From a virus, in IMG/VR virus record IMGVR_UViG_3300009161_000256, positions 1 to 22,605 of that record: a stretch of 22,605 bases of DNA; one strand, given 5' to 3'. The stretch's first letter is position 1. Each line of letters opens with the position of its first letter. This document shows, piece after piece, positions 1 to 20,767 of the stretch. The notes under the pieces were generated by a model. It worked only from the letters and a program-made list of their open reading frames with translations. It did not search any database and was not told where the DNA came from. A program made the translations under genes and the position numbers.

Positions 1-1908
1 AACGGTGTGAGGCAGAACCGTCCGGGGCCGAAGGTCATGCCCGAGGGCGGAGGCTCTGACATCTACGACGCCGACATCATGGAAGGCGTCATGCGGCGTG
101 TGGACTATGAGAACAACGCGTGGAATGCTTGGGAGTTGGCGACTGAATGCGCCACGGGCGGCAACTTTGGCTGCTTCGAGATGGGGCTGGAGTACCAGGA
201 TGACCACTCCTTCTCTCGCCGCATCACTGTGTCAGGTATCCCGAACGCGAACGAGTGTGTCTGGTTCGACCCGGAAGCTATACAACGTGACCGGAGCGAT
301 GCAGAGTGGGCACATCGTGTATACTTTTTATCCCCCGAGAAGTACTTGCAAATGTTCGGGCGCGAGACGAAGTTGGGCAAGCAGATCGAGAGCCGGTTGG
401 GGATGGGTACGGTCCTCAAGTATATCTACTCGCTACCGAACCGGGGAGATTATTCCGGCTGGGTGTCGAATGATGTGATTCAGGTGTCCAAGTTTTACCG
501 AGTGGACCGGAAGTATGACACACTCCGCCAGTATACAGATGGCGTGGAGCGGCTGGATTCGGAGAAGAAATACATCAAGAACGGCGCGAAGCCCCTGCCC
601 GGTGGTCTGGTTCGTGAGACGGAAACCAAAGAGGTCAAGTGGTACTTCGTGGACTGCTTCGAGGTAGTGAAACAGGGCACGTTCGGTGGTCCCTTCATCC
701 CGTTGTTCCCGATGTACGGGCGTGAACGCTGGGTCGGCAACATGCGGTTCGTATCCTCCCTGATCCAGGGCGCGAAAGACATGCAGCAGGCTCTGAACTT
801 CGCCATCACATCGGCTTGCGAGATCCTGTCGGCAGTCTCGAAGACCCCGTGGGTTGGCCTCGCGGGGCAGTTCCGCAGCAAACCGAATCAGTGGACGAAT
901 GCAAACAGCGACATCTTCGCGTTTATGGAGTACGATGAAGTCCTGCTCCCGAACGGTCAGTACCATGTCTCGGCCCCGCAACGGGATGTCTCCGAACCCC
1001 CGATCAACGCCTTCATGACTTTTGCGAACTCGTGTATCGGCTACATACAGCGGGCGACTGGCATCTTCGATCAGACCCTCGGGCGTGCTCGTGCGGATCA
1101 GAGCGGTCGGGCAATCGCAGAGCTGAAAGAGCAGTCTTCGGAAGGCACCTTCCACTGGGCGAGTGCTCTAACTACCTGCCTCACCCACTACTACCGCTGC
1201 ATGGGTGATCTCATTCAGCGCGAGTATGATAAGGAGACTGTCCTCCGCATCATGCGCCCAAACAACAAGATCGAAGAGGCGCTGATTAACTCCGAGTTCA
1301 AGGAAGACCCGGAGACGAAGACTCGTATCTCTTACTCTCTGGCTACCGGGTCATTCTCGTATGCTGTCACTGTCGGTCCCAGCTCCTCCACGCAGCGGGC
1401 ACATGATGCAGAGAAGGCACTGTCGGTAATCAAGATCCTGCCCCCGCAGATGATTGGGGCCATCTCGGACCTCCTGATGAAAGTCATGGATCTGGGTCCG
1501 CTGGGTGAAGAGATGGCTGACCGCATCACACCCCCGCAGTTCCGGGATCAGAATGATCCGCAGGCTATGGCAGCGCAACTCGCGCAGCTCACGCAGCAGA
1601 ACGAGGGTCTGAAACAGGCTGTCGATCAGTTGCAACGTGCGATTGCAGAGAAGCAGCCGCAGTTGGAAGTCGAGAAGTATGTGGCCGAACTGGACGCGCA
1701 GGTCCGCATCATGACCGCGCAGATGAAAGATGGCCAGCAGAAGGCGAAGCAGGAATCTGCTAACCTCCTGAAAGCCCTGGAGATCCGAACCAATGCCGTT
1801 GAGTCGGCAAAGGAGCGGATGAACAGGCTGCAAGTGGTCGCCATCAACAGCAAGCAGGACGTTCAGAGTCCTGAAGAAGCCGACGAAGAAGATGAAGAAG
1901 TGCAGTAA
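1..1908 (+). CDS. Portal protein, P22 gp1-like (5' end missing)
   Basis: The frame is open from base 1, giving 635 visible residues, and it reads as the P22-type portal family: a dodecameric ring at the capsid vertex through which DNA is packaged and ejected, and to which terminase and the tail adaptors bind. The first residues (NGVRQNRPGPKVMP) match the conserved RxNRPxxKVxP segment that in P22 portal lies well inside the protein, so the true start is upstream of the window and the GTG at 7 is not the start. Further family signs are the FDPEA box near residue 90 and the SGRAIAELKEQSSEGTFHW stretch near residue 370. The C-terminal 130 residues are Gln/Lys/Glu-rich with coiled-coil character and end in an acidic tail (PEEADEEDEEVQ). 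The family call is strong; the exact boundary is outside the window. Confidence 0.93.
   Translation, partial: NGVRQNRPGPKVMPEGGGSDIYDADIMEGVMRRVDYENNAWNAWELATECATGGNFGCFEMGLEYQDDHSFSRRITVSGIPNANECVWFDPEAIQRDRSDAEWAHRVYFLSPEKYLQMFGRETKLGKQIESRLGMGTVLKYIYSLPNRGDYSGWVSNDVIQVSKFYRVDRKYDTLRQYTDGVERLDSEKKYIKNGAKPLPGGLVRETETKEVKWYFVDCFEVVKQGTFGGPFIPLFPMYGRERWVGNMRFVSSLIQGAKDMQQALNFAITSACEILSAVSKTPWVGLAGQFRSKPNQWTNANSDIFAFMEYDEVLLPNGQYHVSAPQRDVSEPPINAFMTFANSCIGYIQRATGIFDQTLGRARADQSGRAIAELKEQSSEGTFHWASALTTCLTHYYRCMGDLIQREYDKETVLRIMRPNNKIEEALINSEFKEDPETKTRISYSLATGSFSYAVTVGPSSSTQRAHDAEKALSVIKILPPQMIGAISDLLMKVMDLGPLGEEMADRITPPQFRDQNDPQAMAAQLAQLTQQNEGLKQAVDQLQRAIAEKQPQLEVEKYVAELDAQVRIMTAQMKDGQQKAKQESANLLKALEIRTNAVESAKERMNRLQVVAINSKQDVQSPEEADEEDEEVQ
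1033..1045. repeat. Dispersed 13-bp dyad, copy 1
   Basis: TGTATCGGCTACA, inside the portal gene. The perfect half-site is on the right, so it is in reverse orientation. The codons read C-I-G-Y, a different frame from most other coding copies. Confidence 0.75.
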
Positions 1909-1909
1909 C

Positions 1910-1922
1910 TGTAGCAGCTACA
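1910..1922. repeat. Dispersed 13-bp dyad, copy 2 (intergenic)
   Basis: TGTAGCAGCTACA, a perfect dyad around one central base. It starts 1 nt after the portal stop codon and ends 19 nt before the scaffold ATG. Confidence 0.85.
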
Positions 1923-1941
1923 CGACGATTCGAGACACCCC

Positions 1942-3108
1942 ATGCCTGAAGAAACAGCAGTATCTGAGCCGAAAACCCCGGCATTTTCTGACTTCGTTGC
2001 CAGTGTCCGCACTGGAGTAAAGGAGGGAGGCAGCGTGTATTCGGCTGCGGCTGCGGCTTACAAGCCCGAAGCGGCCACGGAAGTCGTTGATAAGAAAGAA
2101 GATAAGGCAAATGTGGATGCAGACGACAAACCCGGCGACAAGCCTGCGGATGCTGCTGTGGCTGGGGAGAAGGAAGATACTCCTGCTGCAAAGGACAAGC
2201 CATCCCGGCTCGAACGGAAAGTGGCGAGAGTTACACGGGAGTACAAGGACCAGATTGCTGCCCTGACTGCGAAGGTGGAGGCTCTGTCCAAACCCGTTGA
2301 TAGGGTGGAAACATCTGATACTCCCGCTGAAGATGCAGAGCCAGTGGAGCCGGAAGAGGGCGACTTCTCCACGGTCGCTGAGTATGTGAAAGCTCTTCGC
2401 GGATTCGACAAAGAACATGCGGCGTGGAAAGCGAAGCAGGATGCTGTTGCGTCCCGCGCTTTCGAATCGGATGCTGTCTACCGCAGCAGTGTCCAGACAT
2501 TCCTCGCTGATCGTGACCGGATCATGAAAGACGAGAAGTATAAGGACTACATGGACGTAGCCAATTCGTACAAGGGGCCGGATATGTCTCCGGTGCTCGA
2601 ACGGGTTACGGTCATGGCCGGGGACGCGACTCTCATGTACGACTACTGCACGACAAAGGGCATGGTCCGCAAACTGAACGGGATCACCGAGGACGCCGGG
2701 GTTGCGATCCTGAAATCCGCTGACGCCCCAGCTGCGGTGCTGCGGTATCTCGCAGCCAACCCGGATGAGGTCACAAAAATAAATGAATTACCTCTTGCCA
2801 AGCGGGCGGCATTTGTTGGTAAAATAGAAGCACGGGTAGAATCTGAGGCGAAGGCTGGTAGCGATACCTACCAACGTAAAGATGAAACTCGGAACTCTGG
2901 TGGCAACGTAGCGGGTGAGAAACCCAAAGGCGAACACACAGACACGGCTGGTAAAGGGGAGAAAGCCCCGAAGACCAAAGCCGATGTTGACCCGAAAGTA
3001 ACAGGCGGGTCGGCAGCTCCCCAAACCAACTGGGCAGCGTCCGTGGATATGTCTTTTGCGGAACGCGCTCGGCTGATGAAGGAAGCGCAAGTCGCTAAAC
3101 GCCGCTAG
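1942..3108 (+). CDS. Putative scaffolding protein
   Basis: A 388-residue, highly charged, low-complexity protein between portal and coat, where P22-type phages carry the scaffold (gp8) that drives procapsid assembly and then leaves. It is rich in Lys, Glu, Asp and Ala. A helical segment at about residues 88-120 (SRLERKVARVTREYKDQI followed by AALTAKVEALSKPV) has coiled-coil spacing. The C-terminal 80 residues are Lys/Gly-rich, then a short helix (SFAERARLMKEAQVAKRR) ends in basic residues, as expected for the coat-binding helix of P22-type scaffolds. The octapeptide VEALSKPV (112-119) recurs in the protein at 5755-6420. No good Shine-Dalgarno is visible before ATG 1942; dyad copy 2 lies 19 nt upstream. 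Assignment rests on position and composition rather than sequence similarity. Confidence 0.8.
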   Translation: MPEETAVSEPKTPAFSDFVASVRTGVKEGGSVYSAAAAAYKPEAATEVVDKKEDKANVDADDKPGDKPADAAVAGEKEDTPAAKDKPSRLERKVARVTREYKDQIAALTAKVEALSKPVDRVETSDTPAEDAEPVEPEEGDFSTVAEYVKALRGFDKEHAAWKAKQDAVASRAFESDAVYRSSVQTFLADRDRIMKDEKYKDYMDVANSYKGPDMSPVLERVTVMAGDATLMYDYCTTKGMVRKLNGITEDAGVAILKSADAPAAVLRYLAANPDEVTKINELPLAKRAAFVGKIEARVESEAKAGSDTYQRKDETRNSGGNVAGEKPKGEHTDTAGKGEKAPKTKADVDPKVTGGSAAPQTNWAASVDMSFAERARLMKEAQVAKRR

Positions 3109-3110
3109 AG

Positions 3111-3123
3111 TGTAGCTGATACA
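3111..3123. repeat. Dispersed 13-bp dyad, copy 3 (intergenic)
   Basis: TGTAGCTGATACA, starting 2 nt after the scaffold stop. Its last five bases are part of the left arm of the hairpin at 3119-3160. Confidence 0.85.
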
Positions 3124-3160
3124 GCACCTCACGGCGATCCTAATCCCAGAGGTGCTGTAT
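3119..3160 (+). promoter_or_regulatory. Inverted repeat burying the coat gene's ribosome binding site
   Basis: ATACAGCACCTC (3119-3130) is the exact reverse complement of GAGGTGCTGTAT (3149-3160), separated by an 18-nt loop. The right arm contains the Shine-Dalgarno GAGG (3149-3152) and the A and U of the coat start codon (3159-3161). In mRNA the 12-bp stem would hide both. The left arm begins 10 nt after the scaffold stop, so a terminating scaffold ribosome would reach only its base. There is no U-tract, so this is not an intrinsic terminator. The inverted repeat is seen directly; a role in translational control is inferred. Confidence 0.7.
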
Positions 3161-4385
3161 GCCACAAAACGTCCTCGTAACTCCTCAGATGATTACGCAG
3201 GCTCCGCTCTTCGTCCTGAAGAACGCCCTCCGATTCGTCCCCCACGTTGACCGCAAGTACGAAGCTGACTTCGGCAACAAACGCATGAAGATCGGTGCAA
3301 CCGAACAGATCCGCCGTCCCGCCCGTTTCATTGGCCGCGATGGCCAAGCCTGGGACCCGGAAGCACTGACCGACACCTTTATCCCGCTCACCATCAACTT
3401 CCAGCATGGCGTTGACTTCGAGTTCTCCTCGCAGGAACGCGCTCTGTCTCTCGAAATGATGATGGAGCGGTACCTCAAACCCGCCGCAGACAGCATTGCG
3501 AACAAGGTCGATTACAACTTCGGGCGGCTTATGACCCTCTCGGTTGCGAACCTTGTCGGCACTCCCGGTACGGCGGCGACTGGCAACACGGCTCAGGGCA
3601 TCTATGCCGACGCGGGTGTTCTCCTCACCCAGATGGCTTTCCCCGACACCGACCGCTGCGTGGTCTACAACAGCAAGCTGAATCGGAATCTGGTTGTCAC
3701 CAACCTGACTCTCTTCAACCCGCAGGATGCAATCGCGAAGGAGTTTGAGACTGGCTATCAGGGCCGCTTCTCGAACTTCGACTTCTACACGGATGAGAAC
3801 GTCCAGAACTTCACGTTCGGTACCTACACCGGAACCCCGGTTATGACATCGGCGGGTCAGACTGGCTCGTCTATCACCGTGGACGGGTTCACTTCCGGTC
3901 TTGCGGCTCTCAATCAGGGCGACGTGTTCACCATTGGTGGCGTCTATGCGGTGAATCCGCAGTCTCGTCAGTCCACTGGTTCTCTCCAGCAGTTTGTCGT
4001 CACGGCGGCTACTGTTGACGTGGTGGGCACAGCGACGATTCCGATCTATCCCCCCATCATCCCCAGCGGTCAGTTCCAGAACGTCTCGAACTCTCCCGCT
4101 AACGATGCGACCATCACGTTCCTTGGCGCAACCTCTGGCGGTGCGGCTGTCGTCTCCCCGACTGGCCTCGCTTTCCAAAAGGGTGCCTTCACCGCAGCCT
4201 TCGTCCCGCTCGAAACTCCCAAAGCGGTCGAGGAGTCCTACATGGAAACCGATCCCGACACGGGCGTGTCCATGCGGTATCTCTTGCAGTACGACGGTGT
4301 TCGCGACATGTATGTCGGTCGTTTCGACGTGATGTACGGCCTCACTGGAACCTATCTCGAAGGGGCAGTGCGAGTCTCCCAGTAA
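3159..4385 (+). CDS. Major capsid protein, P22 gp5-like
   Basis: A 408-residue protein directly after the scaffold, with the layout of the P22 coat family (HK97 fold). The N-terminal half has the N-arm and the family-typical segments RRPARFIGRDGQAWDPEALT and NFQHGVDFEFSSQERALSL, then a long helix (MMMERYLKPAADSIANKVD). A beta-rich middle containing NQGDVFTIGGVYAVNPQSRQ matches the pattern seen in coat proteins of this group. The C-terminus (DMYVGRFDVMYGLTGTYLEG) fits the end of the same family. Start ATG 3159 has a well-spaced GAGG, but that site lies inside a 12-bp inverted repeat. It is probably the most abundant protein encoded here, which makes the occluded start notable. Confidence 0.92.
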   Translation: MPQNVLVTPQMITQAPLFVLKNALRFVPHVDRKYEADFGNKRMKIGATEQIRRPARFIGRDGQAWDPEALTDTFIPLTINFQHGVDFEFSSQERALSLEMMMERYLKPAADSIANKVDYNFGRLMTLSVANLVGTPGTAATGNTAQGIYADAGVLLTQMAFPDTDRCVVYNSKLNRNLVVTNLTLFNPQDAIAKEFETGYQGRFSNFDFYTDENVQNFTFGTYTGTPVMTSAGQTGSSITVDGFTSGLAALNQGDVFTIGGVYAVNPQSRQSTGSLQQFVVTAATVDVVGTATIPIYPPIIPSGQFQNVSNSPANDATITFLGATSGGAAVVSPTGLAFQKGAFTAAFVPLETPKAVEESYMETDPDTGVSMRYLLQYDGVRDMYVGRFDVMYGLTGTYLEGAVRVSQ

Positions 4386-4402
4386 GGGGACTCGTACTCT
4401 TC

Positions 4403-4415
4403 TGTAGCCGCTACA
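4403..4415. repeat. Dispersed 13-bp dyad, copy 4 (intergenic)
   Basis: TGTAGCCGCTACA, a perfect dyad, 17 nt after the coat stop and 23 nt before the next ATG. Confidence 0.85.
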
Positions 4416-4438
4416 CTGACTGCACAAAGGAACCTACA

Positions 4439-5545
4439 ATGACTCACATGAATCGAATTCTCGCAACTCTCTTGCTCGTGTTTTCCTTCGTCGTCGCCCC
4501 TGTTTACGCTCAGACCGTAACCACGTCCACGACTTTCTCGACAGCCCTGTCCAGTACCGCTACGGCGGGCACTGCCAGTCAGGTCTGCCTCACTTCTTCC
4601 ACGGGCGTCTCGGCTCCCGGTTTCGGCTCCACTCCTCAGACCGCGATCATGGCGGGTACCGAGTACATGCCGATTCTGGCTTCGACCCCCAACGCGAATT
4701 GCTGGACCGTCACTCGCGGCGGCAACGGGACTAAAGTCTCCGCTCACGCGACCACTGAGACTGTCTATGTCGGTCCGGTTGGCGGGAACACTTCCGGCCC
4801 CTTCCGATTCGCTCCCCCGGCTGGCGGTGCAGGTTCGACCTGCACTTCCACCTCCTTCTTCTACCTTCCGCAGGTTGTGGTCGGTAGCGGCACGGCTGGG
4901 CATTACGCTGACGGCCAGGTCTGGACCTGTCCCGCTTCCGGTTCGGTTGGCGCAAGCACTTGGCAGATGACGACAGATCCCGGCGCAGGCCAGATGTTGA
5001 CAGACGGTTACTTCTTCGTCAGTCCTGCTTCGTGCGGGGTTAAGGCCACAACTACTACCACGACCGACAACGGTATGGTTCCGGTGGCGACAGGTAACGT
5101 CGTCCACCAGTTCACGACCAATGCGACGGGCGGCACGTCTCAGATCACCTGCGGGATTACCGTCCCGAGTAGGCTGACTTCTGGCAAGGGGATCTCGATT
5201 ACCTCGGTATCCTTTCTCTACGGGGTCCAGACCAACGCGATTGCGTCGATTGCTACTGCGGCTCTCTCCAGCGTCACTTATCCGACATCAACAGCGGGTG
5301 GTGCGGCTGCGGCAGGTACGGTGGCGGCAATCGGCGGGACAGTAGCGGTTACGCCTACTTCTCTCCAACTCGCGACCACAACTACGGGACAGTGCTACAG
5401 TGAGAACCTGACTCTGGGGACTCCGTACAATATCACGACTGATAATGTCGGTCTGTCGTTCGATCAGGTGTTCACCAACTCTGCGGCGATCACGGTTTAC
5501 CAATCGTGCGGCCTCATCGTCCGGTATACCAATCGCCCCATCTAA
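4439..5545 (+). CDS. Secreted, decoration-like capsid-adjacent protein
   Basis: A 368-residue beta-rich, Thr/Ser/Gly-rich protein beginning with a textbook Sec signal peptide: MTHMNR, a hydrophobic core ILATLLLVFSFVVAPV, and cleavage site VYA|Q after residue 24. Residues 25-115 resemble a domain common in phage head-decoration or fibre proteins, with a TTxxSTALSSTATA start and a WTVTRGGNGTKVSAHA turn ending in VYVGP. The remainder is unrecognised beta-rich sequence. The mature part has eight cysteines, an even number compatible with disulfides, while the coat protein has one. ATG 4439 follows AAAGGA (4426-4431) with 7 nt spacing; ATG 4448 is an alternative that keeps the leader. The position right after the coat gene suggests a capsid-surface protein, but a leader peptide is unexpected for a protein assembled in the cytoplasm. 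Confidence 0.7.
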   Translation: MTHMNRILATLLLVFSFVVAPVYAQTVTTSTTFSTALSSTATAGTASQVCLTSSTGVSAPGFGSTPQTAIMAGTEYMPILASTPNANCWTVTRGGNGTKVSAHATTETVYVGPVGGNTSGPFRFAPPAGGAGSTCTSTSFFYLPQVVVGSGTAGHYADGQVWTCPASGSVGASTWQMTTDPGAGQMLTDGYFFVSPASCGVKATTTTTTDNGMVPVATGNVVHQFTTNATGGTSQITCGITVPSRLTSGKGISITSVSFLYGVQTNAIASIATAALSSVTYPTSTAGGAAAAGTVAAIGGTVAVTPTSLQLATTTTGQCYSENLTLGTPYNITTDNVGLSFDQVFTNSAAITVYQSCGLIVRYTNRPI

Positions 5546-5555
5546 GGACCCGGAC

Positions 5556-5753
5556 ATGAACCTCCACAATCCTCCCGCCTCTGTACTCGATCAGGGGCGG
5601 GAGGACAAACACAACTATCGGGGATGGGGGCAGACAAAGCCCGTGATCCCGGCAAGCAACACTCTCCCGGACGCTGCGGCTCCCGCTGTAGCAGATACAC
5701 AGGAACTGGCTGCTGCGCCCCCCGCTCCAGCCAAGAAAAAGAGAGGCAAGTGA
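5556..5753 (+). CDS. Small unknown protein, 65 aa
   Basis: A short gene fitted between its neighbours with a 10-nt gap before it and 1 nt after it, with AAGGA upstream of ATG 5556. The protein is polar at first (MNLHNPPASVLDQGREDKHN), then Ala/Pro-rich, and ends in a basic tail (KKKRGK). No domain is recognised and the composition suggests a disordered peptide. Dyad copy 5 lies within it, read as V-A-D-T. The tight packing supports it being a real gene; the role is unknown. Confidence 0.65.
   Translation: MNLHNPPASVLDQGREDKHNYRGWGQTKPVIPASNTLPDAAAPAVADTQELAAAPPAPAKKKRGK
5687..5699. repeat. Dispersed 13-bp dyad, copy 5
   Basis: TGTAGCAGATACA inside the 65-aa gene, codons V-A-D-T; perfect half-site on the left. 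Confidence 0.8.
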
Positions 5754-5754
5754 C

Positions 5755-6420
5755 ATGGCGGTGCAGGGAATTGTAACCGGACGGACCAACTCCGAGAAGG
5801 GGATTGTTCGCACATTCCGGCAGATGAACGAGACGCATCGCAGGTTGGCGAACCAGATGCTGAATGCGGCAGACTTTGAGGCGACTCGGAATCTCCCGAT
5901 CAACAAGCGGCTGGCTTGTGATGAGAGTGGGGAGTATGACAAGGATGCCCCTCGTCAGGCTTTCAATCTCGCGACGGCACCCAAGTACCCAAAGCATCTG
6001 CACCACAAGATCAATGAGAACCAGTTTGTCGAAGTCAGGGATGAAGTTCACGAGTCCCAAGTGATGGCGAGTGGGCTGTATTCTGCAACCCCCATTGAGA
6101 AGCGGTCGGCATTCAAGGTGTCGGATGCGGCTACATCGGACCTTATTCAGCGGGAATTGATGGCGGCTCAGGCTCGGACCCGCGATCTGGAAGCAAGACT
6201 GTATGAGCTTACCCAGTCGCAGGCTCGTACCGATCAGACCTCCGAAGTCGGCACCCTGCGTCAGGTTGTAGCCGACCTCATGGCTCGGGTCGAAGCGTTG
6301 TCCAAACCTGTCGCGGTAGTCTCTGCGGCCCCGGTGGATGATGACGACGATGATGATGACGACGATGATGACGACAGTGACACGGTTAAGCCCGCCGCTG
6401 TCAAGGGTCGCCGCAAGTAG
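5755..6420 (+). CDS. Coiled-coil head protein with poly-Asp tract
   Basis: A 221-residue protein of unknown function in the head module, starting 1 nt after the previous stop (TGACATG). Residues 1-120 are mixed polar sequence. Residues 128-188 form a likely coiled coil, ending in VEALSKPV (179-186), an octapeptide also found in the scaffold. Then comes an uninterrupted run of 13 Asp (195-207) encoded by alternating GAT/GAC codons, and a basic tail (VKGRRK). The acidic run followed by a basic end could bind coat, scaffold or DNA-like surfaces, but this is inference. In some related phages a gene of this kind sits between coat and tail adaptors. It could be a second assembly factor. Confidence 0.72.
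   Translation: MAVQGIVTGRTNSEKGIVRTFRQMNETHRRLANQMLNAADFEATRNLPINKRLACDESGEYDKDAPRQAFNLATAPKYPKHLHHKINENQFVEVRDEVHESQVMASGLYSATPIEKRSAFKVSDAATSDLIQRELMAAQARTRDLEARLYELTQSQARTDQTSEVGTLRQVVADLMARVEALSKPVAVVSAAPVDDDDDDDDDDDDDSDTVKPAAVKGRRK
6337..6375 (+). repeat. GAT/GAC microsatellite encoding 13 Asp
   Basis: Thirteen consecutive Asp codons mixing GAT and GAC. The mixture of codons argues for selection on the peptide rather than recent triplet slippage alone. Confidence 0.85.
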
Positions 6421-6422
6421 TC

Positions 6423-6435
6423 TGTAGCAGATACA
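6423..6435. repeat. Dispersed 13-bp dyad, copy 6 (intergenic)
   Basis: TGTAGCAGATACA, starting 2 nt after the upstream stop and ending 19 nt before ATG 6455, the same spacing as copies 2 and 19. Confidence 0.85.
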
Positions 6436-6454
6436 GTAGTTTCCGGGGGAGCTT

Positions 6455-7201
6455 ATGCCGACAGTAACAGCCCAAACGATTATAACTGCAGCTTGGGTGT
6501 CTTTAGGCATCGGTTCCCCCGGTGCTACGATGCCAGCCCCGGAAGCATCATGGGGACTGGATACACTGAACCGCTTTAACGACAGCATGAGTGGCGTGGA
6601 TGACATGATAAATGTTGTCACGTTAGCCCGGTACACACTGTCGGCAAATGTGGCGGTTTACAACATCGGGACTGGAGCCACATTCAATACTCTCCTTCCG
6701 GTGATGATAGAAACTGCCTCCATCGTGCTTGCCGTGCCTGGGGGTGACGAGCAGACCTTCCCGCTGGACATCATACCCGAGGAGCAATGGGCTGCGATTG
6801 GGGATAAGAAGGCCACTGGTACGGTTCCGACGAAGATGTTCTTCTCGCCTGTCGATCCAGTCGGCACCCTGAATTTCCATCCGATTCCGAAAGCGGCAGT
6901 GACTACACAGGTAGAGCTGGGAGTGTGGTCCCCGATTCCGCAACTGGCAACTCTCGCTACTTCTGTCAATCTCCCCGCTACCTATTACCGCTACGAGGTC
7001 TTGGGGCTGGCAATAGAACTGGCCCCCACATACGGCTCGGTTGTGAACCCGGTTATCCTCCAGATTCGCCAGCAGCAATATGCGGAAGCTCGGGCGATAG
7101 TACAAGCCCGCAATCGGGAGCTGAGGATGAAGCAGGCTCCCTCCCCGACACCTGAACAAGTGGCTCGTGCGAGAGCACAGCAGCCGCAGGCGGGGGCATA
7201 G
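6455..7201 (+). CDS. Head-to-tail adaptor, P22 gp4-like (copy A)
   Basis: A 248-residue protein of the P22 gp4 (tail accessory factor) type, which forms a ring below the portal and closes the packaged head. The family pattern is visible: a helical start (QTIITAAWVSLGIGSPGATM) with the ALxxLGxxxPG theme, then GLDTLNRFNDSM; a middle part with PLDIIPEEQWAAIGDKKATG; TLNFHPIPKA; and a C-terminal helix region (YRYEVLGLAIELAPTYG). The tail is Gln/Ala/Arg-rich and probably disordered. The GGGGGA before ATG 6455 serves as Shine-Dalgarno. It is followed after 6 nt by a second gene of the same family, suggesting an old tandem duplication with divergence. Confidence 0.82.
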   Translation: MPTVTAQTIITAAWVSLGIGSPGATMPAPEASWGLDTLNRFNDSMSGVDDMINVVTLARYTLSANVAVYNIGTGATFNTLLPVMIETASIVLAVPGGDEQTFPLDIIPEEQWAAIGDKKATGTVPTKMFFSPVDPVGTLNFHPIPKAAVTTQVELGVWSPIPQLATLATSVNLPATYYRYEVLGLAIELAPTYGSVVNPVILQIRQQQYAEARAIVQARNRELRMKQAPSPTPEQVARARAQQPQAGA

Positions 7202-7207
7202 TCTCTC

Positions 7208-8002
7208 ATGGTTACCACGTTCGGATCTGGACCCGGTACCGTTGCATATCTCGCACTGCGTAGAGCGGGTGCGATTATGGCTGGGGCGACTGAAGCCACA
7301 ACCCTGCTTGATGATTGCTTGCAGGAAGCGAACCTCATCCTCGACGGCTGGGATGCACAGAAGCTGGCACACTACTTCATGGATGATCGGTACTTTGACA
7401 TCACAGTGTCACAGCAGACGTACACGCTCGGACCAACTGGCGACTTTGACACCGACGCGGACGGGGTTGCGTTGCTCTATCGCCCCCAGAAGATCGAGCT
7501 TGCGAACTATGTGTATCAGGTGTCCGGGGCACTGCCTGTCCGCATCCCGTTGAACATCATCGAGGTTGATAACTTTGCACAGATCCCACTCTTGCAGGTG
7601 CAATCCAACGTCACGACCACATTGTACATCCAGTACACAGATACGAACATCACTCTCTGGCCGTACCCGTACCCGAATACCGGGAACCAGTTTGAGTTCT
7701 TTATGTGGCCGGGGTTCGCACGGTTTGCGAGTGTAGCGGGTACATTCACCGGACCTCCGGCCTTCACTGACGCTCTGGTGTCGGCTCTGGCTCTGAAGAT
7801 GTATCAGCTCACGACTCGGGATGTTGGGATTGCCCGTAACAACAGACTCCAGACTCTTATGTACGATGCGCGGGCGGCACACAGGCTCATGACAACATCG
7901 AATCTCGTCACACCCACTCTCGATCCTGATATCAGGTTCGGTGGCAACAACGGAGCGCCTTTTAATTACCTCACGGGAACGTTCAGTGGTTTTAGTAATT
8001 AA
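7208..8002 (+). CDS. Head-to-tail adaptor, P22 gp4-like (copy B)
   Basis: A 264-residue protein with the same plan as its upstream neighbour: an N-terminal helical pair (VAYLALRRAGAIMAGATEAT, then LDDCLQEANLILDGWDAQK), the family hallmark QQTYTLGPTGDFDT, then RPQKIELANYVYQ, an IPLNIIEVDNFAQI strand region, TLWPYPYPNT, and a C-terminal helix that reads as the conserved ALALKMYQLTTRD part. Sequence identity with copy A is low, so they probably form two different layers of the neck rather than redundant subunits. It starts 6 nt after the previous stop with only a G-rich stretch as ribosome binding site, consistent with coupled translation. The 42 nt after the gene hold no motif I recognise. Confidence 0.82.
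   Translation: MVTTFGSGPGTVAYLALRRAGAIMAGATEATTLLDDCLQEANLILDGWDAQKLAHYFMDDRYFDITVSQQTYTLGPTGDFDTDADGVALLYRPQKIELANYVYQVSGALPVRIPLNIIEVDNFAQIPLLQVQSNVTTTLYIQYTDTNITLWPYPYPNTGNQFEFFMWPGFARFASVAGTFTGPPAFTDALVSALALKMYQLTTRDVGIARNNRLQTLMYDARAAHRLMTTSNLVTPTLDPDIRFGGNNGAPFNYLTGTFSGFSN
7732..7744. repeat. Dispersed 13-bp dyad, copy 7
   Basis: TGTAGCGGGTACA in adaptor B, codons V-A-G-T; perfect half-site on the left. Confidence 0.75.
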
Positions 8003-8044
8003 ACGAGCTATCAAATACCTACAGAAGTACTCAGGGGCCTTATA

Positions 8045-8404
8045 GTGACTTCAGCAGATGAGAAGGTGGCAGTGTTGGAATCAGAGGTTAATGGCATACT
8101 CGGAGCAATAGCGAGACTGGATGCCCGCTCCATAGAGGCGGGTAATCAGGTGGCAGCTATGGTAGGGTCAGTGTCTCACTTGGCCGTGTCGGTAACGGAG
8201 TTAACGGAGGAGTTGAAGTCATGGGGGCGTGTCTCGTCTGACCGTCTACGCGCTGTAGAGGGGGAGATATACGCCATGAAAGCCGTAGAGGAAGAGCGCA
8301 ACCGTCACCACAATGCGACCTTTAACCGGGTCATGGCTATCTGCGCGGTGTGCTCGGCAGTCCCGACTACCGTAGTGTTCTTCTCACTTCGCGGAGGTCG
8401 TTGA
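8045..8404 (+). CDS. Small coiled-coil protein with C-terminal membrane helix
   Basis: A 119-residue protein beginning at GTG 8045, with AGGGG about 9 nt upstream. Residues 5-85 are helical with repeated heptad-like hydrophobics (VAVLESEVNGILGAIARLD, LAVSVTELTEELKSWGRV). Residues 96-114 (VMAICAVCSAVPTTVVFFS) form one hydrophobic helix, followed by a basic end (RGGR). A long N-terminal coil plus one C-terminal membrane helix is the layout of XhlA-type holin-associated proteins, and similar small proteins are common near phage tail genes. Its place between neck and hub genes would be unusual for lysis, so a membrane-interacting tail accessory role is equally possible. It ends 1 nt before the next gene (TGACATG). 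Confidence 0.65.
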   Translation: MTSADEKVAVLESEVNGILGAIARLDARSIEAGNQVAAMVGSVSHLAVSVTELTEELKSWGRVSSDRLRAVEGEIYAMKAVEEERNRHHNATFNRVMAICAVCSAVPTTVVFFSLRGGR

Positions 8405-8405
8405 C

Positions 8406-9956
8406 ATGGCTGAGTTTGCGGGATTCATTGGGCCATCCTACGCAGGCAAATCGAAGTATGCTGCTATCGAGAAGTGCCTGAACTTATACCCAGAAGTGCT
8501 TGGGACCCCATCGCCCGAGAAGGCGAAAGTGGTCCTGTATCCGACACCTGGGACAGGGTATGTCAGCGGTGGCTCTGATTTCCCACAGCCTAATCGAGGG
8601 CTGTTGCAGCTCAATGGCCGGATCTTTGGTGTCAACGGGAGTACGTTTTTTGAGTTCATCCTCCCGACTCCATCCTTCCCATCTGGGGCGTGGTACAACT
8701 GGGGCGCTGTTGCTGACGATGGACTGCCCGTGTGTATGGTTGCGAACGGTGTAATAACCACAGAGCAGCAGATATTCATCTCTAGTGCGGGTCAAGGGTA
8801 TGTGTGGTCGTTAGGGAATGTCTTCTCAGACTTGTCGCTGGAGCCGCAGTTCCTTGCCGGTACCGGGGCGGCTTTCATTAACGGGTACTTTGCCTCCATC
8901 ATTGACGGCACCAACGGATTTCAGATATCGAATGTCAACAGCGGCGCGTTAGGTAACTGGGATAGCCTTGATGTAGCCTACGCTCAAGGACAATCTGATA
9001 CTCTCGTCAATCTCATCTCCGATCACGGTTACCTTTGGCTGTTTGGTAACAGGCACATCCAGCTCTGGTATGCTGTCCAGAACCCCGGTCCACTCGACTT
9101 TCCGTTTGCCCCGCAACAGGGGGCATTTATCGAGATTGGGTTGGAGGCAGCTACTTCGTTAACAAAAGCGGATAACTCTTTGTTCTGGCTCGGGGCATCC
9201 TCGCAAGGGGGCCGCATTGCATATCGCACATCCGGCATCAATCCGGTTCGGATCAGCAACCATGCTATCGAGCAGGAGTGGGCAAAGTATTCGACTGTAG
9301 CAGATACATGGACTTACTCGTTCGAGTGGGATGGGCACACCTTCGTCCGGTTCATCTTCCCCACGGCGGGCAAGGGCTGGACATATGATTGCGCTGCGTC
9401 TGCCGATTTCGGGATGCCCATCTGGCACGAGAATGCGTTCACTCAGGCTAATGGCGTCCTGACTGCACCACTGGAGCGAGGCTACTGTTTCCTCAACGGC
9501 GTGCATTATGTCGGGGGCGGGGCTGTCACTGGGCATCCGGGGGCTATCTACAAGTTCACAACCGCGACGTACATCCCGGAGGACCCGGTTGCTATTCTGC
9601 TGTGGTCTAATGACGGAGGCAACACTTGGGGACCTGAGTACGAGGTCCCTGTCGGCAATCAGGGTGAGTATGTGTATCGGGTACAGGCCAACTTGCTCGG
9701 GTCTGGGCGCGACCGCGTGTTCTGGTTGCGGTGTATCGACAAGGGAGAATGCGCCCTCACGAGCACTACCGCAGAGGGAGAGTTCTACATCACCCGCGAC
9801 CGGATTTGTCCACATTTGTACCACGAGTACAATCTCAATACCTACCACCAGTTGGAGATTGAGTGCCAACGCGGGATAGGCTCAGCAAATGGTGAAGTTG
9901 ACAAATTCTGGGCGCTGATCTCGGCGTATCTGTACTTCTCTCCGGGGGCTGCGTAA
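8406..9956 (+). CDS. Tail hub / packaged-DNA stabilisation protein, P22 gp10-like
   Basis: A 516-residue protein of the P22 gp10 type, the hexameric hub that joins the gp4 ring to the needle and tailspikes and keeps DNA inside the head. The N-terminus (CLNLYPEVL, then PTPGTGYV) matches the family's opening xxNxYPE and pTPG motifs. The centre shows beta-propeller-like repeats with family-typical segments GYLWLFGNRHIQLWYAVQNP, LTKADNSLFWLGAS and RISNHAIEQEW. The C-terminus has WSNDGGNTWGPEYEVPVG followed by VFWLRCI, a pattern often seen at the end of these hubs. It overlaps the next gene by one base (TAATG). Dyad copies 8 and 9 lie inside it. Confidence 0.85.
   Translation: MAEFAGFIGPSYAGKSKYAAIEKCLNLYPEVLGTPSPEKAKVVLYPTPGTGYVSGGSDFPQPNRGLLQLNGRIFGVNGSTFFEFILPTPSFPSGAWYNWGAVADDGLPVCMVANGVITTEQQIFISSAGQGYVWSLGNVFSDLSLEPQFLAGTGAAFINGYFASIIDGTNGFQISNVNSGALGNWDSLDVAYAQGQSDTLVNLISDHGYLWLFGNRHIQLWYAVQNPGPLDFPFAPQQGAFIEIGLEAATSLTKADNSLFWLGASSQGGRIAYRTSGINPVRISNHAIEQEWAKYSTVADTWTYSFEWDGHTFVRFIFPTAGKGWTYDCAASADFGMPIWHENAFTQANGVLTAPLERGYCFLNGVHYVGGGAVTGHPGAIYKFTTATYIPEDPVAILLWSNDGGNTWGPEYEVPVGNQGEYVYRVQANLLGSGRDRVFWLRCIDKGECALTSTTAEGEFYITRDRICPHLYHEYNLNTYHQLEIECQRGIGSANGEVDKFWALISAYLYFSPGAA
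9296..9308. repeat. Dispersed 13-bp dyad, copy 8
   Basis: TGTAGCAGATACA in the hub gene, codons V-A-D-T; perfect half-site on the left. Confidence 0.8.
9673..9685. repeat. Dispersed 13-bp dyad, copy 9 (weakest)
   Basis: TGTATCGGGTACA in the hub gene; both half-sites deviate at positions 5 and 9 while the outer TGTA/TACA is kept. The frame is different again (V-Y-R-V). It lies 377 nt after copy 8 and 378 nt before copy 10. This copy could be chance. Confidence 0.5.
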
Positions 9957-10981
9957 TGGCTATTCCTCCCCCTATACAAGCTGGCCAGATGTGGAATCAA
10001 GCTGGGCATTTGAACCCGGCTTGGGATTACTGGCTTAGGTCGTTGGAGAATGTAGCGGGTACAGATCCGGCGGTCATCCCGGATGGGACTCTAGCAGATA
10101 TGCTTGCGATGTCCCCGTTTAAGAACGCCCCGGCAGGCGCTATTGAAGCGGCTATACTCGCTCTCGCGTGCGTGTCCCGGCCTCGTTTGCAAAGTGGCGC
10201 AGATGCAGATCAGGTATTGCAGTCTCGGAATGCCACAGCAACCGAACAGATTGACCTGCTATCTGCCTTGACCACTCGGGCGTCAAAGCCGACTCGGCCT
10301 CAGATCGTTGTCTGCACCCAAGCTACATTCCCGGCGACGGCCACTCTTGCACCCACGACGTTTGTGTACGTCACCGACTACTGTCACATGATGTTCTGGG
10401 ATGGCGTGACTATGGCGTTCGCGGACGGTGGTAACAGGTATATGGCCTTGTTCGAGACAGCTCCGGGGACAGGATGGGCGCTGTACGACGGCGGGACATA
10501 CGCATACCTGACATCCGCAGGGGCTACAGCGAATATAACTCTCCCGGATCTTACATCGGCTGGGGCTTTGGCAGCGTTCTTGGAAGCCGGGGGCGTTGTC
10601 AGTGGTCCGACAGCGGCAGTGGCTCCGACATTCACAGGCGCTGCTGCTGTTCCGGCTGGTATAGTGTCGGCCCCCGTATTCACAGGGACTCCTTTGGCGG
10701 CACACTATCACGACGCCCCAATCGGGATTGATGGAGCTGATAATATCTACGCCATTCAAGTGAATGGGGCCGGGGGTGCGTACTCCGCGACAACAGTGGT
10801 GGCTGGCGTTGCTGATGTGAGCGCAGTCTATGCGTTGAAGACTACTGCTGACTCAGCCGGGACCCCTGCGGGAACTGTGTCTTCCCCGGTATTCTCAGGT
10901 GTATCCGCTACACCAACGGGCACAATTAGCACTACTGGGGAACCCAGAAAGCTGACTCGGCTCCCGTATTTTCGACGGTGA
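9956..10981 (+). CDS. Tail fibre or needle-like protein
   Basis: A 341-residue virion protein translationally coupled to the hub gene. The N-terminus (AGQMWNQAGHLNPAWDYWLR) is an aromatic helical segment that probably docks to the hub. The middle is beta-rich. The C-terminal 130 residues are Gly/Ala/Thr/Pro-rich with repeats of the type xPxFTGxxxxxG: APTFTGAAAVPAG, APVFTGTP and SPVFSGVSATPTG. An H-Y-H triplet (250-252) recalls the metal-binding HxH motifs of phage fibre tips. The end RKLTRLPYFRR resembles the LPYxR ends of tail-fibre and collar proteins. By position it replaces the P22 gp26 needle or a short fibre; which one cannot be decided. Dyad copies 10 and 11 are inside. Confidence 0.68.
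   Translation: MAIPPPIQAGQMWNQAGHLNPAWDYWLRSLENVAGTDPAVIPDGTLADMLAMSPFKNAPAGAIEAAILALACVSRPRLQSGADADQVLQSRNATATEQIDLLSALTTRASKPTRPQIVVCTQATFPATATLAPTTFVYVTDYCHMMFWDGVTMAFADGGNRYMALFETAPGTGWALYDGGTYAYLTSAGATANITLPDLTSAGALAAFLEAGGVVSGPTAAVAPTFTGAAAVPAGIVSAPVFTGTPLAAHYHDAPIGIDGADNIYAIQVNGAGGAYSATTVVAGVADVSAVYALKTTADSAGTPAGTVSSPVFSGVSATPTGTISTTGEPRKLTRLPYFRR
10051..10063. repeat. Dispersed 13-bp dyad, copy 10
   Basis: TGTAGCGGGTACA, codons V-A-G-T, in the fibre gene. Confidence 0.75.
10900..10912. repeat. Dispersed 13-bp dyad, copy 11 (reverse orientation)
   Basis: TGTATCCGCTACA; the perfect half-site is on the right. Codons V-S-A-T, within the fibre gene's repeats. A degenerate form (TGTAGCGTTTTCA, three mismatches) lies just after the gene at 10983. 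Confidence 0.75.
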
Positions 10982-11054
10982 TTGTAGCGTTTTCAGCAGG
11001 TTACAGGTAAAAATAGTTGTGGGAATGCAGAAAGATACGAGGTAGAATATAGAT

Positions 11055-11438
11055 ATGGCCGTCAACACTGTCAATAACGTGATTCCGGGACAGGCTGTCG
11101 CGAGTGGCGCGATAGCGAAACTGGTGTTTACGGCGAATAACTCGTATCTCGGGGGCCTGAGTGTGCTGCCTGCCAGTGTGTATGTGACGATCACGAGCAT
11201 CAAAGTCACCAATGCGTCGGGCGCTCTTGCCAGCCTTACTCTGTCTGCGGGAGATACAGGGACGACAGTGGATGTCTTCTGCCCCGCGACTCCGATTCCT
11301 TTGCCGACTGTGGGCGCACCTTATACGGAAATGCTGGATGCTCCGATTGTTCTTGAGCCTGGGCAGTCTCTGTGGGCACTTACTTCCGTCGCGGCTGCTT
11401 TGAATATCCGCGCAGACGGGATGGTATCTATCCAATGA
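11055..11438 (+). CDS. Small beta-rich virion protein, 127 aa
   Basis: A 127-residue protein with alternating hydrophobic strands and no charged helices: VYVTITSIKVTNASGALASL, then a Thr-rich loop, and IVLEPGQSLWALTSVAAALN. The LEPGxSLWA segment is typical of small beta-sandwich proteins found among phage tail genes, but I cannot name the family. It follows a 73-nt gap (10982-11054) that has no full-length dyad and no convincing promoter; a TAGAAT-like box at 11043 lacks a properly spaced -35. Its stop overlaps the next start (ATGA). Confidence 0.68.
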   Translation: MAVNTVNNVIPGQAVASGAIAKLVFTANNSYLGGLSVLPASVYVTITSIKVTNASGALASLTLSAGDTGTTVDVFCPATPIPLPTVGAPYTEMLDAPIVLEPGQSLWALTSVAAALNIRADGMVSIQ

Positions 11439-11965
11439 AGAATGTGACCGTAGCCCGTGGGTGGCTGGAGCAGTACGACTCGCTGCTCTGGGGCTGGTTG
11501 AATGCCGATCCGGTGATGAATTTTGATGATACCTTCTCTGGCGGTTATCGCCAGTTCTGCAATGTGCTCACAAACCGGGGGCAGCGTGGCCAGCAGTACA
11601 CGGTCTATGGCGGGCCGGATGCTTCTGTTGTCGGGTTTGTGGGAGTAGAGACTGAGGTACCCGGCTACGCTTACAAGACTGGGGGCGTGGTCATTTCCCC
11701 GGAGCATCGCGGTAACGGTTACGCTACGGCTGCGGTGCTGGCCGTGATTCAGGATCTCCTGAGTGTAGCAGATACACCTAATCTGCGGGTGTCGGCTGAG
11801 TTGTTTAAGCACAACAAACCGATGCGGTATGTCTTGCACAAATGCGGATTCACAGAAGAGGGGACTCACATCGGTAAGACATTGCAGGGCGGCTCTCCCG
11901 TGGATACAGTCACATATGGCTTGGTGGTGTCATCGCCGCAAATGACTATCGGGGAGGAGGTGTAA
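11435..11965 (+). CDS. GNAT-family N-acetyltransferase
   Basis: A 176-residue protein starting at ATG 11435, which overlaps the preceding stop as ATGA; the open frame extends upstream but the overlap is the natural start. The acetyl-CoA-binding motif A is clear at residues 85-106: VVISPEHRGNGYATAAVLAV, with the pyrophosphate-binding R-G-N-G-Y-A at 92-97. Motif B follows (NKPMRYVLHKCGFTEEG, 127-143), where the N..xxxLxKxGF pattern is standard for the fold. The N-terminal 60 residues carry the substrate-side helices and strands. GNAT enzymes move an acetyl group from acetyl-CoA to an amine; the substrate here is unknown. The gene sits among virion genes, so a virion protein, a host protein met on entry, or a toxin-like role are all open. 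Confidence 0.82.
   Translation: MKNVTVARGWLEQYDSLLWGWLNADPVMNFDDTFSGGYRQFCNVLTNRGQRGQQYTVYGGPDASVVGFVGVETEVPGYAYKTGGVVISPEHRGNGYATAAVLAVIQDLLSVADTPNLRVSAELFKHNKPMRYVLHKCGFTEEGTHIGKTLQGGSPVDTVTYGLVVSSPQMTIGEEV
11764..11776. repeat. Dispersed 13-bp dyad, copy 12
   Basis: TGTAGCAGATACA in the GNAT gene, codons V-A-D-T. It is the last copy before the longest gap (2.6 kb), which contains the HNH gene. Confidence 0.8.
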
Positions 11966-11972
11966 AGTGCCC

Positions 11973-12512
11973 TCAATCTCTCGGCGGTCTGAGGATATTT
12001 TCTGTAAGCGGCTCTCCTCGTTTGATTCTCATGAAGAGGGTCAGATACTTGAGTCCAAACGACTCGCAGAACTCTGGAATAGTAAGGGTAACTCCTTCGA
12101 TGGTGTACCTCCTGTTGCGGCTGGTGTTTCTGGCTTGTTCAGTTCCGCTGGCCCACTTGCAGTTCTCTGGGGAGTATGGGCCGTTGCTGTCTTCTCTCTC
12201 AAGAGTATAGTGTCTGGGGCGTGGTCCCATGTCCGCAGCGAAAGCGGCGAGGGATCGTTCCCAGCGTCGGCACACTGTGATGGGGGGAGTCTTGCCTCCG
12301 TATATATGCCAGTCCTTGAAAGTCGGATCACTGCATCTCCGTATCATTGTCTTCCAAGTATCGTAGAGAGGGTTTCGTTGCTTAAATTCGAGTCGATCCC
12401 TCTTGTGGCATGTTATGCACTCGATGCTGTTGTTGCGCTCCGGTCGAATGCGGCTGTTCTCAGGAGTGAGTTCATGTCCGTGTTTGCAGAAATTATCTGT
12501 CCTACGTTGCAT
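11973..12512 (-). CDS. HNH-family homing endonuclease, antisense
   Basis: A 179-residue reverse-strand protein, the only gene opposing the late operon. An N-terminal zinc-binding segment has C9/H11/H13 and C32-x2-C35 (FCKHGHEL and ECITC). The nuclease core spans about residues 48-128: LYDTWKTMIRRCSDP, KTPPITVCRRWERSLAAFAA, and HYTLEREDSNGPYSPENCKW (101-120), which is the family's LDRxDNxGxYxPxNCRW signature with Asp replaced by Glu at 105. A C-terminal helix-turn-helix-like part (LTIPEFCESFGLKYLTLFMR) likely reads DNA. Such enzymes cut alleles lacking the insertion and spread by repair. It lies between the GNAT stop (7 nt away) and the 5' end of an ejection-protein gene. The overlapping + strand frame at 11967-12569 has no family features and is a shadow. 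Confidence 0.87.
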   Translation of the reverse strand: MQRRTDNFCKHGHELTPENSRIRPERNNSIECITCHKRDRLEFKQRNPLYDTWKTMIRRCSDPTFKDWHIYGGKTPPITVCRRWERSLAAFAADMGPRPRHYTLEREDSNGPYSPENCKWASGTEQARNTSRNRRYTIEGVTLTIPEFCESFGLKYLTLFMRIKRGEPLTENILRPPRD

Positions 12513-12518
12513 ACGACC

Positions 12519-12527
12519 AGTATAGCA
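12519..12527 (-). promoter_or_regulatory. Possible extended -10 promoter for the HNH gene (leaderless)
   Basis: On the reverse strand TGCTATACT lies 6 nt before ATG 12512. TG-N-TATACT is a good extended -10, and transcription would begin at or next to the start codon, giving a leaderless mRNA; indeed no Shine-Dalgarno precedes the ATG. No -35 is recognisable. This is inferred from a short match. Confidence 0.4.
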
Positions 12528-12542
12528 CGGGCGGAAGGGGGT

Positions 12543-12569
12543 ATGCCATTCCTTTTGGGGGTTTACTAA
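12543..12569 (+). other. Strong start with apparent -1 frameshift site ahead of the ejection gene
   Basis: GGAAGGGGG directly precedes ATG 12543, a much better ribosome binding site than the one before ATG 12614. Reading gives MPFLLGVY and a stop at 12567-12569. The -1 frame is open and continuous with the downstream protein, and a slippery-type heptamer T-TTG-GGG occurs at 12554-12560. After a -1 slip the product would begin MPFLLGGLLTIGLIAGG and run into the ejection protein, giving the hydrophobic N-terminus usual for that family. A one-base loss in the T4G5 run, or a sequencing error, would look the same. Confidence 0.55.
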
Positions 12570-12613
12570 CTATCGGCCTGATCGCAGGCGGCACGCAGCT
12601 ACTCGGCGGAATC

Positions 12614-13537
12614 ATGGGCGGCAATGCCCAGAAGAAGGCGGCGAAGACTCAGGCGGATGCGGCTCGTGTTGCGGCTGAGGAGTCCAAACGGCAATACGAA
12701 ACTACTCGCGGTGATCTCATGCCGTGGATGCGGGGCGGGCAGGAGTCGTTCGACACCCTGCTTGCCAAGCTGAAATCCGGTGAGATCGGTGGTCCGTATG
12801 GCCAGACCTTCCGCGCCCCGACAGCGCAGGAGGCACAGGACACACCCGGTTACCAGTTCACGCTGGATCAAGGTAACAAAGCTATCCTCCGTGGACAGGC
12901 CGCTTCTGGTGGTGCTTTCACTGGCGGGACGATGAAGAACCTTGCCAACTTCAATAAGAATCTGGCAGATACCACCTACAACGATACATTCCTGCGGAAG
13001 TTGCAGGAGTTCAATACGAACTTCGGTGTGTGGCAGGGGGATCAGAATCGCGGGTTCTCGAATCTGTACAATGTCGCGAACCTCGGAGAGAATGCGGCGG
13101 CGCAGACAGGGCAGTTCGGGCAACGGGCGACCGCAGAAGCGAACGGGTACAGTACCGATGCGGCGGCGGCAAATGCCGCTGGGATTATCGGGTCCACAAA
13201 CAGCTATGTGTCCGGGATCAATGGGCTGGTGAATAATGTCACAGGTGCGATGACGAAAGGGGGCTTCGGTGGGGGTAGTGTAGCCCCAGGCATGTCTCTG
13301 CCAACGAACACATCTTCCTACTCTCCCCGCACGGCTGCAATTAGGAATCCGGCGAACATGTTCAACTACAGTCTCGAAACTCCGCAGGTCGGTACAGGGT
13401 CACTGACATTCGATCCGAAGCTGCCTGGGGCTGGCTGGAATATGGGGTTTGAGTCCAACGCTGATTTTAAGAAGTATGCCGACGAGGCTCTGAACTACCA
13501 ACCTATGGGTTCTACCTCATCTATGTGGTTTGATTGA
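12614..13537 (+). CDS. DNA ejection / internal virion protein, gp7-like
   Basis: A 307-residue protein from ATG 12614, belonging by pattern to the widespread podovirus DNA-transfer family of proteins packed in the head and ejected to build a channel across the envelope. Typical parts are the Ala/Gln/Lys-rich helix NAQKKAAKTQADAARVAAEE, the RGDLMPWMRGGQESFDTLLA block, the PGYQFTLDQGNKAILRGQAA segment followed by GGAFTGGTMKNLANF, and the TYNDTFLRKLQEFNTNFGVW helix. The frame is also open upstream to at least 12545 and encodes a Gly/Leu/Ile stretch fitting a membrane-active N-terminus, so the true protein probably begins at ATG 12543 via a frameshift (see that entry). It is followed after 1 nt by the next gene. 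Confidence 0.82.
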   Translation: MGGNAQKKAAKTQADAARVAAEESKRQYETTRGDLMPWMRGGQESFDTLLAKLKSGEIGGPYGQTFRAPTAQEAQDTPGYQFTLDQGNKAILRGQAASGGAFTGGTMKNLANFNKNLADTTYNDTFLRKLQEFNTNFGVWQGDQNRGFSNLYNVANLGENAAAQTGQFGQRATAEANGYSTDAAAANAAGIIGSTNSYVSGINGLVNNVTGAMTKGGFGGGSVAPGMSLPTNTSSYSPRTAAIRNPANMFNYSLETPQVGTGSLTFDPKLPGAGWNMGFESNADFKKYADEALNYQPMGSTSSMWFD

Positions 13538-13538
13538 T

Positions 13539-14792: not shown

Positions 14793-15661
14793 TGGAGCCG
14801 GAACAGGATGTCACCATATCCGCTGAAGCACTAAAGGCATTGACCTCCAAGGGCAACACAGAAGTTAGAAACCCTGCAGTGCTAAAGAAATACCCAAAAG
14901 TAGCGGACATGGTTAAGATGTTTGGGGAGTACGACTTGCAGCTTAGTAACTACGCTTTTGGTCGAGATCCCGTGTTCATGGGCAAGCTGGCCCAACTTGC
15001 GAAGGAGTACAATCCGTCCTTTAATGTCGGAAAGTATGATGTCATCCAAAAGGCGAGAAAGGACTACACTGGGCAGGGACAGGGGGGGAAAAACCTGACA
15101 GCCATAAACACGGCAGTAGGCCACTTCGACACATATCTCAACGACATAGAGAAAGAGGGCAACCTGTCCATCGGTTTTCTAAATTCCCCCCGGAACTGGT
15201 GGAGAACGGAAGCCCAAGATGATGCCGCCCCCAACAACGTAAAGATGACAGCAGATATGCTGGCGTCTGAGCTTGTCAAGGCCACTCGTGGGGGGCCTGG
15301 AGCTTCGCGGGATGTGCAGGACTGGCAGCAAAATGTGTCACCAAATCACTCTCCGAATGTGCAGAGGGGGTCTGCTCACAAGGCATTAGAGTTGCTGTCC
15401 AGTAGACTTGCGGCAGAACGGGATAACTATATGCGGGATGTTGGACAGCCTCCGACAGTTCCCTTTCTCTCTAAGACATCTCGCGAGACGCTAAGGAATC
15501 GCGGATACGACCCCGACTTGCTGGAGCAGGGTGTGAAAGCAGACAAGGCCAGGCTGCGGATGGATGACTTGCCTGATGCGGTGAAGCTGAAGTATCTAAA
15601 AAAAGCTGGGGGAGACGTTGCAAAGGCCAAGGCATTAGCCAAAGAAGATGGGTTCCGGTGA
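14792..15661 (+). CDS. Internal virion protein, 289 aa
   Basis: Coupled to the previous gene through TAATG and to the next through TGATG. Residues about 70-220 carry a pattern widespread in phage internal virion proteins: NPSFNVGKYDVIQKARKDYT, then GGKNLTAINTAVGHFDTYLN, then SELVKATRGGPGASRDVQDW, and a final helix SAHKALELLSSRLAAERDNY. In other podoviruses this domain occurs in head-packed proteins that are ejected. The C-terminus (KLKYLKKAGGDVAKAKALAK) is basic. Codon use is more A-rich in the first third than in its neighbours, which may reflect separate ancestry. Exact role is unknown. Confidence 0.75.
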   Translation: MEPEQDVTISAEALKALTSKGNTEVRNPAVLKKYPKVADMVKMFGEYDLQLSNYAFGRDPVFMGKLAQLAKEYNPSFNVGKYDVIQKARKDYTGQGQGGKNLTAINTAVGHFDTYLNDIEKEGNLSIGFLNSPRNWWRTEAQDDAAPNNVKMTADMLASELVKATRGGPGASRDVQDWQQNVSPNHSPNVQRGSAHKALELLSSRLAAERDNYMRDVGQPPTVPFLSKTSRETLRNRGYDPDLLEQGVKADKARLRMDDLPDAVKLKYLKKAGGDVAKAKALAKEDGFR

Positions 15662-18315: not shown

Positions 18316-18316
18316 C

Positions 18317-18874: not shown

Positions 18875-18885
18875 GAAAGGTGATT

Positions 18886-20351: not shown

Positions 20352-20368
20352 AGGCAAAAACGAACACT

Positions 20369-20751: not shown

Positions 20752-20754
20752 GTG

Positions 20755-20767
20755 TGTAGCAGATACA
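20755..20767. repeat. Dispersed 13-bp dyad, copy 19 (intergenic)
   Basis: TGTAGCAGATACA, ending 19 nt before the tailspike ATG 20787, the same distance as copies 2 and 6 from their genes. Confidence 0.85.

Follow-up and report, generated by a model that had tools for sequence, protein, structure and literature searches.

A hairpin over the coat gene start of a P22-like phage as a candidate translational gate

Background

Highly expressed genes usually have open start sites, and a tight RNA block on the gene for the most abundant virion protein goes against this expectation. Such a block is predicted at the major coat gene of a P22-like phage in the stretch of DNA analysed here (22,605 bases, referred to as the window), which is an IMG/VR fragment. 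This raises the question of whether the structure controls coat translation and, if so, what would open it.

Results

The scaffold-coat junction contains a perfect stem

The original prediction named the two genes flanking the stem as scaffold and coat. This assignment is correct: both match their respective families (Table 1) and an upstream ORF matches the P22 portal profile PF16510. With a coat profile match and with scaffold and portal upstream, the downstream gene is a major coat gene of the P22 type. The scaffold stop codon is located 50 nt upstream of the coat ATG. This start is secure because in-frame stops precede it at 3117 and 3141 and because the N-terminus aligns with those of relatives. 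As for the scaffold gene, its start at 1942 is preceded by almost no Shine-Dalgarno sequence (SD), and a strong AAGGAGG precedes an in-frame GTG at 2035; from the sequence, two forms of the scaffold protein are conceivable.

Table 1. Coordinates of the features at the scaffold-coat junction, in window positions
Feature	Position	Strand	Basis
Scaffold gene, stop TAG 3106-3108	1942..3108	+	ORF; phrog_8865 head scaffolding protein, E 3e-12
13-bp dyad TGTAGCTGATACA, one of 19 dispersed copies, shares 3119-3123 with the left arm	3111..3123	.	Motif count
Left (anti-SD) arm ATACAGCACCTC	3119..3130	+	Inverted-repeat search
Loop, 18 nt, weak inner pairing 3133-3134/3146-3147 and 3136-3138/3143-3145	3131..3148	+	Fold
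Right arm GAGGTGCTGTAT, contains SD GAGGTG (3149-3154) and AT of the start codon	3149..3160	+	Inverted-repeat search and fold
Major coat gene, P22 coat family	3159..4385	+	PF11651 E 2e-32; phrog_283 E 7e-63; N-terminus aligned with relatives

The 12-bp stem proposed between the two arms is exact, with 100 % complementarity, and it does bury the SD and the first two bases of the coat ATG (3159-3161). The SD extends further than first described: its six bases, GAGGTG, are complementary to the 3' tail of the 16S rRNA, and CACCTC in the left arm is identical to the anti-SD sequence of that tail. The predicted free energy of the isolated hairpin is -22.4 kcal/mol. Among perfect inverted repeats of the window this is the longest, and no other reaches 11 bp (loop of at most 60). 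Dinucleotide shuffles of the whole window yield a mean of 0.1 repeats of at least 12 bp, and when the 53-nt junction alone is shuffled 12 bp is reached in 3-4 of 20,000 shuffles.

No Rfam family scored above its gathering threshold in the window or in five relatives, with only eukaryotic families found far below threshold. We rejected an intrinsic terminator as a reading of the stem since no T-run follows 3160 and the terminator scan does not report it. A trans-acting partner was likewise rejected: the window has no second copy of an arm, and its one weak match with 2 mismatches is at chance level.

Folding predictions for 20 starts in the window place the coat start among the most closed. Its SD is paired with a probability of 0.999, its initiation region has the lowest mean unpaired probability of all 20 (0.11), and opening the SD and start is predicted to cost 13.3 kcal/mol, second only to the start at 8406 (16.6 kcal/mol). 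That no other junction carries such a stem thus holds for perfect stems but not more broadly, given the similar opening cost at 8406 and a 14-bp inverted repeat of 93 % identity at 5570-5605. The former is the start of an Hc3-like gene, predicted to be folded as tightly as the coat start (8336-8425), and the latter lies 14 nt inside a small gene starting at 5556.

Occlusion of the coat start recurs in relatives

We collected more than 200 loci with related coats, many of them overlapping, corresponding to 123 unique coat junctions, from which clustering at 80 % coat identity gave 41 lineages. The other starts of the same loci served as controls, and the upstream part was shuffled while the SD and all downstream sequence were kept fixed. 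We define strong occlusion as SD pairing with upstream sequence above 0.9 together with a shuffle p <=0.05. Strong occlusion was found in 8 of the 41 coat lineages compared to 3 of 168 other starts (Fisher p ~1e-4) and 0 of 61 starts whose intergenic gap is of comparable size (Fisher p ~4e-4). With the window left out, coat and other starts still differ (p=6e-4). Opening energies are likewise higher for coat starts, 8.9 kcal/mol compared to 7.0 and 6.1 kcal/mol for the controls (p=0.003 for 8.9 versus 7.0).

This enrichment is partly exploratory because the loci L001-L012 prompted the idea; among lineages fetched after the idea arose, 3 of 34 coat starts and 2 of 118 other starts are strongly occluded (p=0.07). 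No enrichment was seen in 19 GenBank phages, P22 included, with coats of 28-37 % identity (1/19 coat starts versus 3/113 other starts), where Xanthomonas phage PBR31 is the single replicating case. In GC-rich loci, raw pairing probability used alone, with no shuffling, failed to distinguish coat starts from control starts.

In a maximum-likelihood tree of the coats, the window falls inside a clade of 10 rows (support 99/97), 7 of them labelled hairpin-bearing. Under the stricter shuffle test (p<=0.05) occlusion is found at 5 of 10 coat starts and 2 of 54 other starts of the clade (p=6e-4; 7e-5 in a z-score test), counts that include the near-relative pairs L015/L016 and L001/L002. Three members (L019, L021 and L115) have no clear occlusion. 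Among the 5-7 of 10 junctions that do show it, the occluding arms are unrelated in sequence.

In further viral scans, L001 and L002 were the only relatives that exceeded 60 % identity to the window. The junctions of these 72-73 % relatives fold differently from that of the window, and with a longer fold their occlusion is not significant (p 0.21 and 0.135). Their two hairpins differ from each other at two positions only, both unpaired. Conservation of pairing in homologous junctions had been put forward as a check on the stem. The outcome is mixed: even these two relatives do not retain the sequence of the stem, while occlusion recurs with other sequences.

One such change can be followed between L015 and L016, whose coats are 97 % identical and whose flanking DNA is almost unchanged. 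About 30 nt between the scaffold stop and the SD have been replaced, both hairpin arms having changed together (GTCGC/GCGAC in one and GTGTTTC/GAAACAC in the other), and each hairpin is predicted to pair most of AGGAGG. A two-tier form, where an outer SD stem surrounds an inner hairpin, is present in L003, L006, L008, L100 and L154; in L128 and PBR31 a GC-rich inner hairpin followed by T's is found inside the SD stem.

A terminator-like GC-rich hairpin followed by T's is located between scaffold and coat in L025, L026, L098, L099, L103, L108, L128 and L227, which come from Paraburkholderia and Burkholderia prophages, Xanthomonas phage PBR31 and some viral contigs. In a further locus (L225, MW202674, 3995-5510) the annotation splits the P22-type coat in two around a small ORF, which may be an insertion or intron.

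A dispersed dyad overlaps the left arm

As originally noted, the left arm shares five bases with a copy of a 13-bp dyad. The motif TGTAN5TACA has 19 copies in the window compared to 0.16 expected, always in the form TGTA[GT]CNG[ACG]TACA. These copies of TGTAGCNGCTACA are spread across 1033-20767 (for example at 1910, 3111, 4403 and 6423), about one per 1.1 kb. L001 contains 9 copies and the L002 locus 13 (0.2-0.6 expected), with 31 in the whole L002 record. Their outer TGTA/TACA is the same as in the window, but most have AT-N-AT inside where the window has GC-N-GC, as a shift in binding specificity would produce. The window, L001 and L002 alike have one copy in the scaffold-coat junction.

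Many dispersed short copies with a phage-specific consensus resemble the stoperators of mycobacteriophages (PMC5712189), a likeness found for the dyad only and making it a putative operator; unlike stoperators, the window dyad is a palindrome that mostly occurs within genes. A repressor gene was not identified in L244; ten proteins of the L002 record tried against Pfam included no regulator. The dyads were rejected as promoters since no conserved flank surrounds the 19 copies. Despite the bases in common with the left arm, the dyad is probably a separate DNA-level system.

Discussion

A gate on coat translation and its possible openers

The finding of similar hairpins made from unrelated sequences in relatives suggests that coat synthesis is gated at the RNA level. 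On balance the hairpin is probably functional as a gate, and with somewhat better than even confidence we propose that it may act in cis on translation of the coat gene. The RNA-level control suggested in the original prediction is supported in part: recurrent SD occlusion and the hairpin replacement in L015/L016 argue for it, while the lack of conservation of the exact pairing in L001 and L002 argues against it.

On a polycistronic mRNA of the head genes, the left arm would pair with the coat SD and the AU of the AUG, and therefore free 30S subunits could hardly initiate coat; undoing the pairing would allow coat to be made. Folding in the cell, repression and opening are all steps that we infer. 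Since coat must be heavily translated, a tight block needs an opener, which counts against the gate. Across the wider clade the likeliest trigger would be ribosome traffic over the scaffold 3' end, tying coat output to scaffold translation. The anti-SD strand of L003, L006, L015, L016 and L097 is within or next to the scaffold stop and thus in reach of the terminating ribosome, which would cover it. The corresponding distance past the stop is 46-69 nt in L001/L002, L008 and L100.

The window itself is a poor fit for simple coupling to scaffold termination, one of the routes first proposed, because the distance from the scaffold stop is 11 nt for the start of the stem and 18-22 nt for the anti-SD bases, slightly outside the region that a terminating ribosome is expected to cover. 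With the stem starting at the leading edge of that ribosome, the ribosome-traffic trigger is less certain here than in the clade. The next choice for the window would be that RNA processing, or an unrecognised internal transcript start, leaves the mRNA without its left arm.

Comparison with known systems

Hairpin-gated starts are a known type of element, and what is unusual here is that the gene is a major coat gene. In T4 e, soc, 49 and I-TevI a hairpin blocks initiation on long transcripts, and late transcripts lack its 5' strand (PMC3014915). These genes and the window have in common that the SD and/or AUG is paired with an upstream strand in a stable helix, of 12 bp in the window. By analogy the window hairpin may work like the gene e type, although we do not claim membership: the T4 late promoter is inside the 5' strand whereas no sigma-70 promoter was detected at 2700-3300 in the window, and the T4 genes are not the major coat gene. 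The hairpin sequestering the ribosome binding site of Aeh1 mobE (cited in PMC3014915) is another phage example, in a homing-endonuclease gene rather than an abundant structural gene.

In MS2 a start hidden by RNA structure is opened by ribosomes on the upstream gene, and hairpin stability sets expression (PMC9894550). The coat/replicase coupling and the coat initiator hairpin of MS2 thus share a structure-hidden start site with the window; MS2 is an RNA phage with long-range pairing, while the window arm lies just past the terminating ribosome. The P22 gene 8 - gene 5 junction has the same gene pair in the same order with a homologous coat, but its scaffold and coat genes overlap by one base with no predicted hairpin. 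Control of the P22 scaffold, originally cited in support of the stem, is for this reason not evidence for it, and the claim of P22 scaffold autoregulation was not found in the literature searched.

Alternative explanations

One alternative follows T4 more closely. The hairpin would silence coat on long read-through transcripts, and the productive coat mRNA would start or be cut inside or after the left arm and lack the anti-SD strand. The anatomy is that of the T4 genes, and the scheme is workable for relatives with the arm 46-146 nt past the scaffold stop. Against it, a motif scan limited to sigma-70-like promoters found none in 2700-3300 or in the L001 junction, and the 19 dyads have no conserved context marking them as promoters. 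We consider this alternative possible but doubtful. Slightly less probable, and on the whole unlikely, is that the stem is a chance or neutral structure, of little effect or tolerated through another expression route. By chance about 0.1 repeats of 12 bp are expected across the 22.6 kb, the enrichment fades in newly fetched lineages and distant phages, and the start at 8406 is likewise predicted to be tightly folded. Nevertheless, the probability within the junction itself is about 2 in 10,000, the stem falls exactly on the coat SD, occlusion recurs in the clade, and the hairpin was replaced rather than lost between L015 and L016.

It is also conceivable that coat or scaffold protein binds the hairpin, with feedback setting the scaffold-to-coat ratio. 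The structural proteins of P22 come from one mRNA with no specific control mechanism known (2023 paper, PMC9894550). The coat protein of MS2 offers a precedent, since it binds a hairpin. Because stem sequences turn over freely, with loops and stems wholly different among close relatives, L015/L016 included, a sequence-specific switch of this kind is disfavoured and we regard it as improbable. Even less credible is a DNA-level element related to the overlapping dyad, in which the two arms, with 30 bp between their centres, would be regulator binding sites. The five shared bases point that way, but neither arm fits the dyad consensus, the window offers no other good arm copy, and the coincidence with the SD is left unexplained. 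The least probable explanation, which we judge highly unlikely, is that the stem stimulates readthrough of the scaffold UAG, adding ~24 residues. The scaffold frame is open to 3180 and the 11-nt spacing resembles that of viral readthrough stimulators, but this layout is not shared with L001/L002, where the scaffold stops ~100 nt before the coat start.

Conclusions

How the scaffold-to-coat ratio arises from one long mRNA in P22-like phages has been described as unresolved (PMC9894550). The junctions are short, easily cloned elements, and the natural pair L015/L016 could distinguish coupling, processing and feedback. Extending the translational gate from the window to its relatives, we tentatively hypothesize, at rather less than even confidence, that in a clade of P22-like phages an RNA gate shuts the coat gene, its function kept while its sequence is repeatedly replaced, and that scaffold translation or mRNA processing licenses coat synthesis, so that the scaffold-to-coat ratio would be set at the RNA level.
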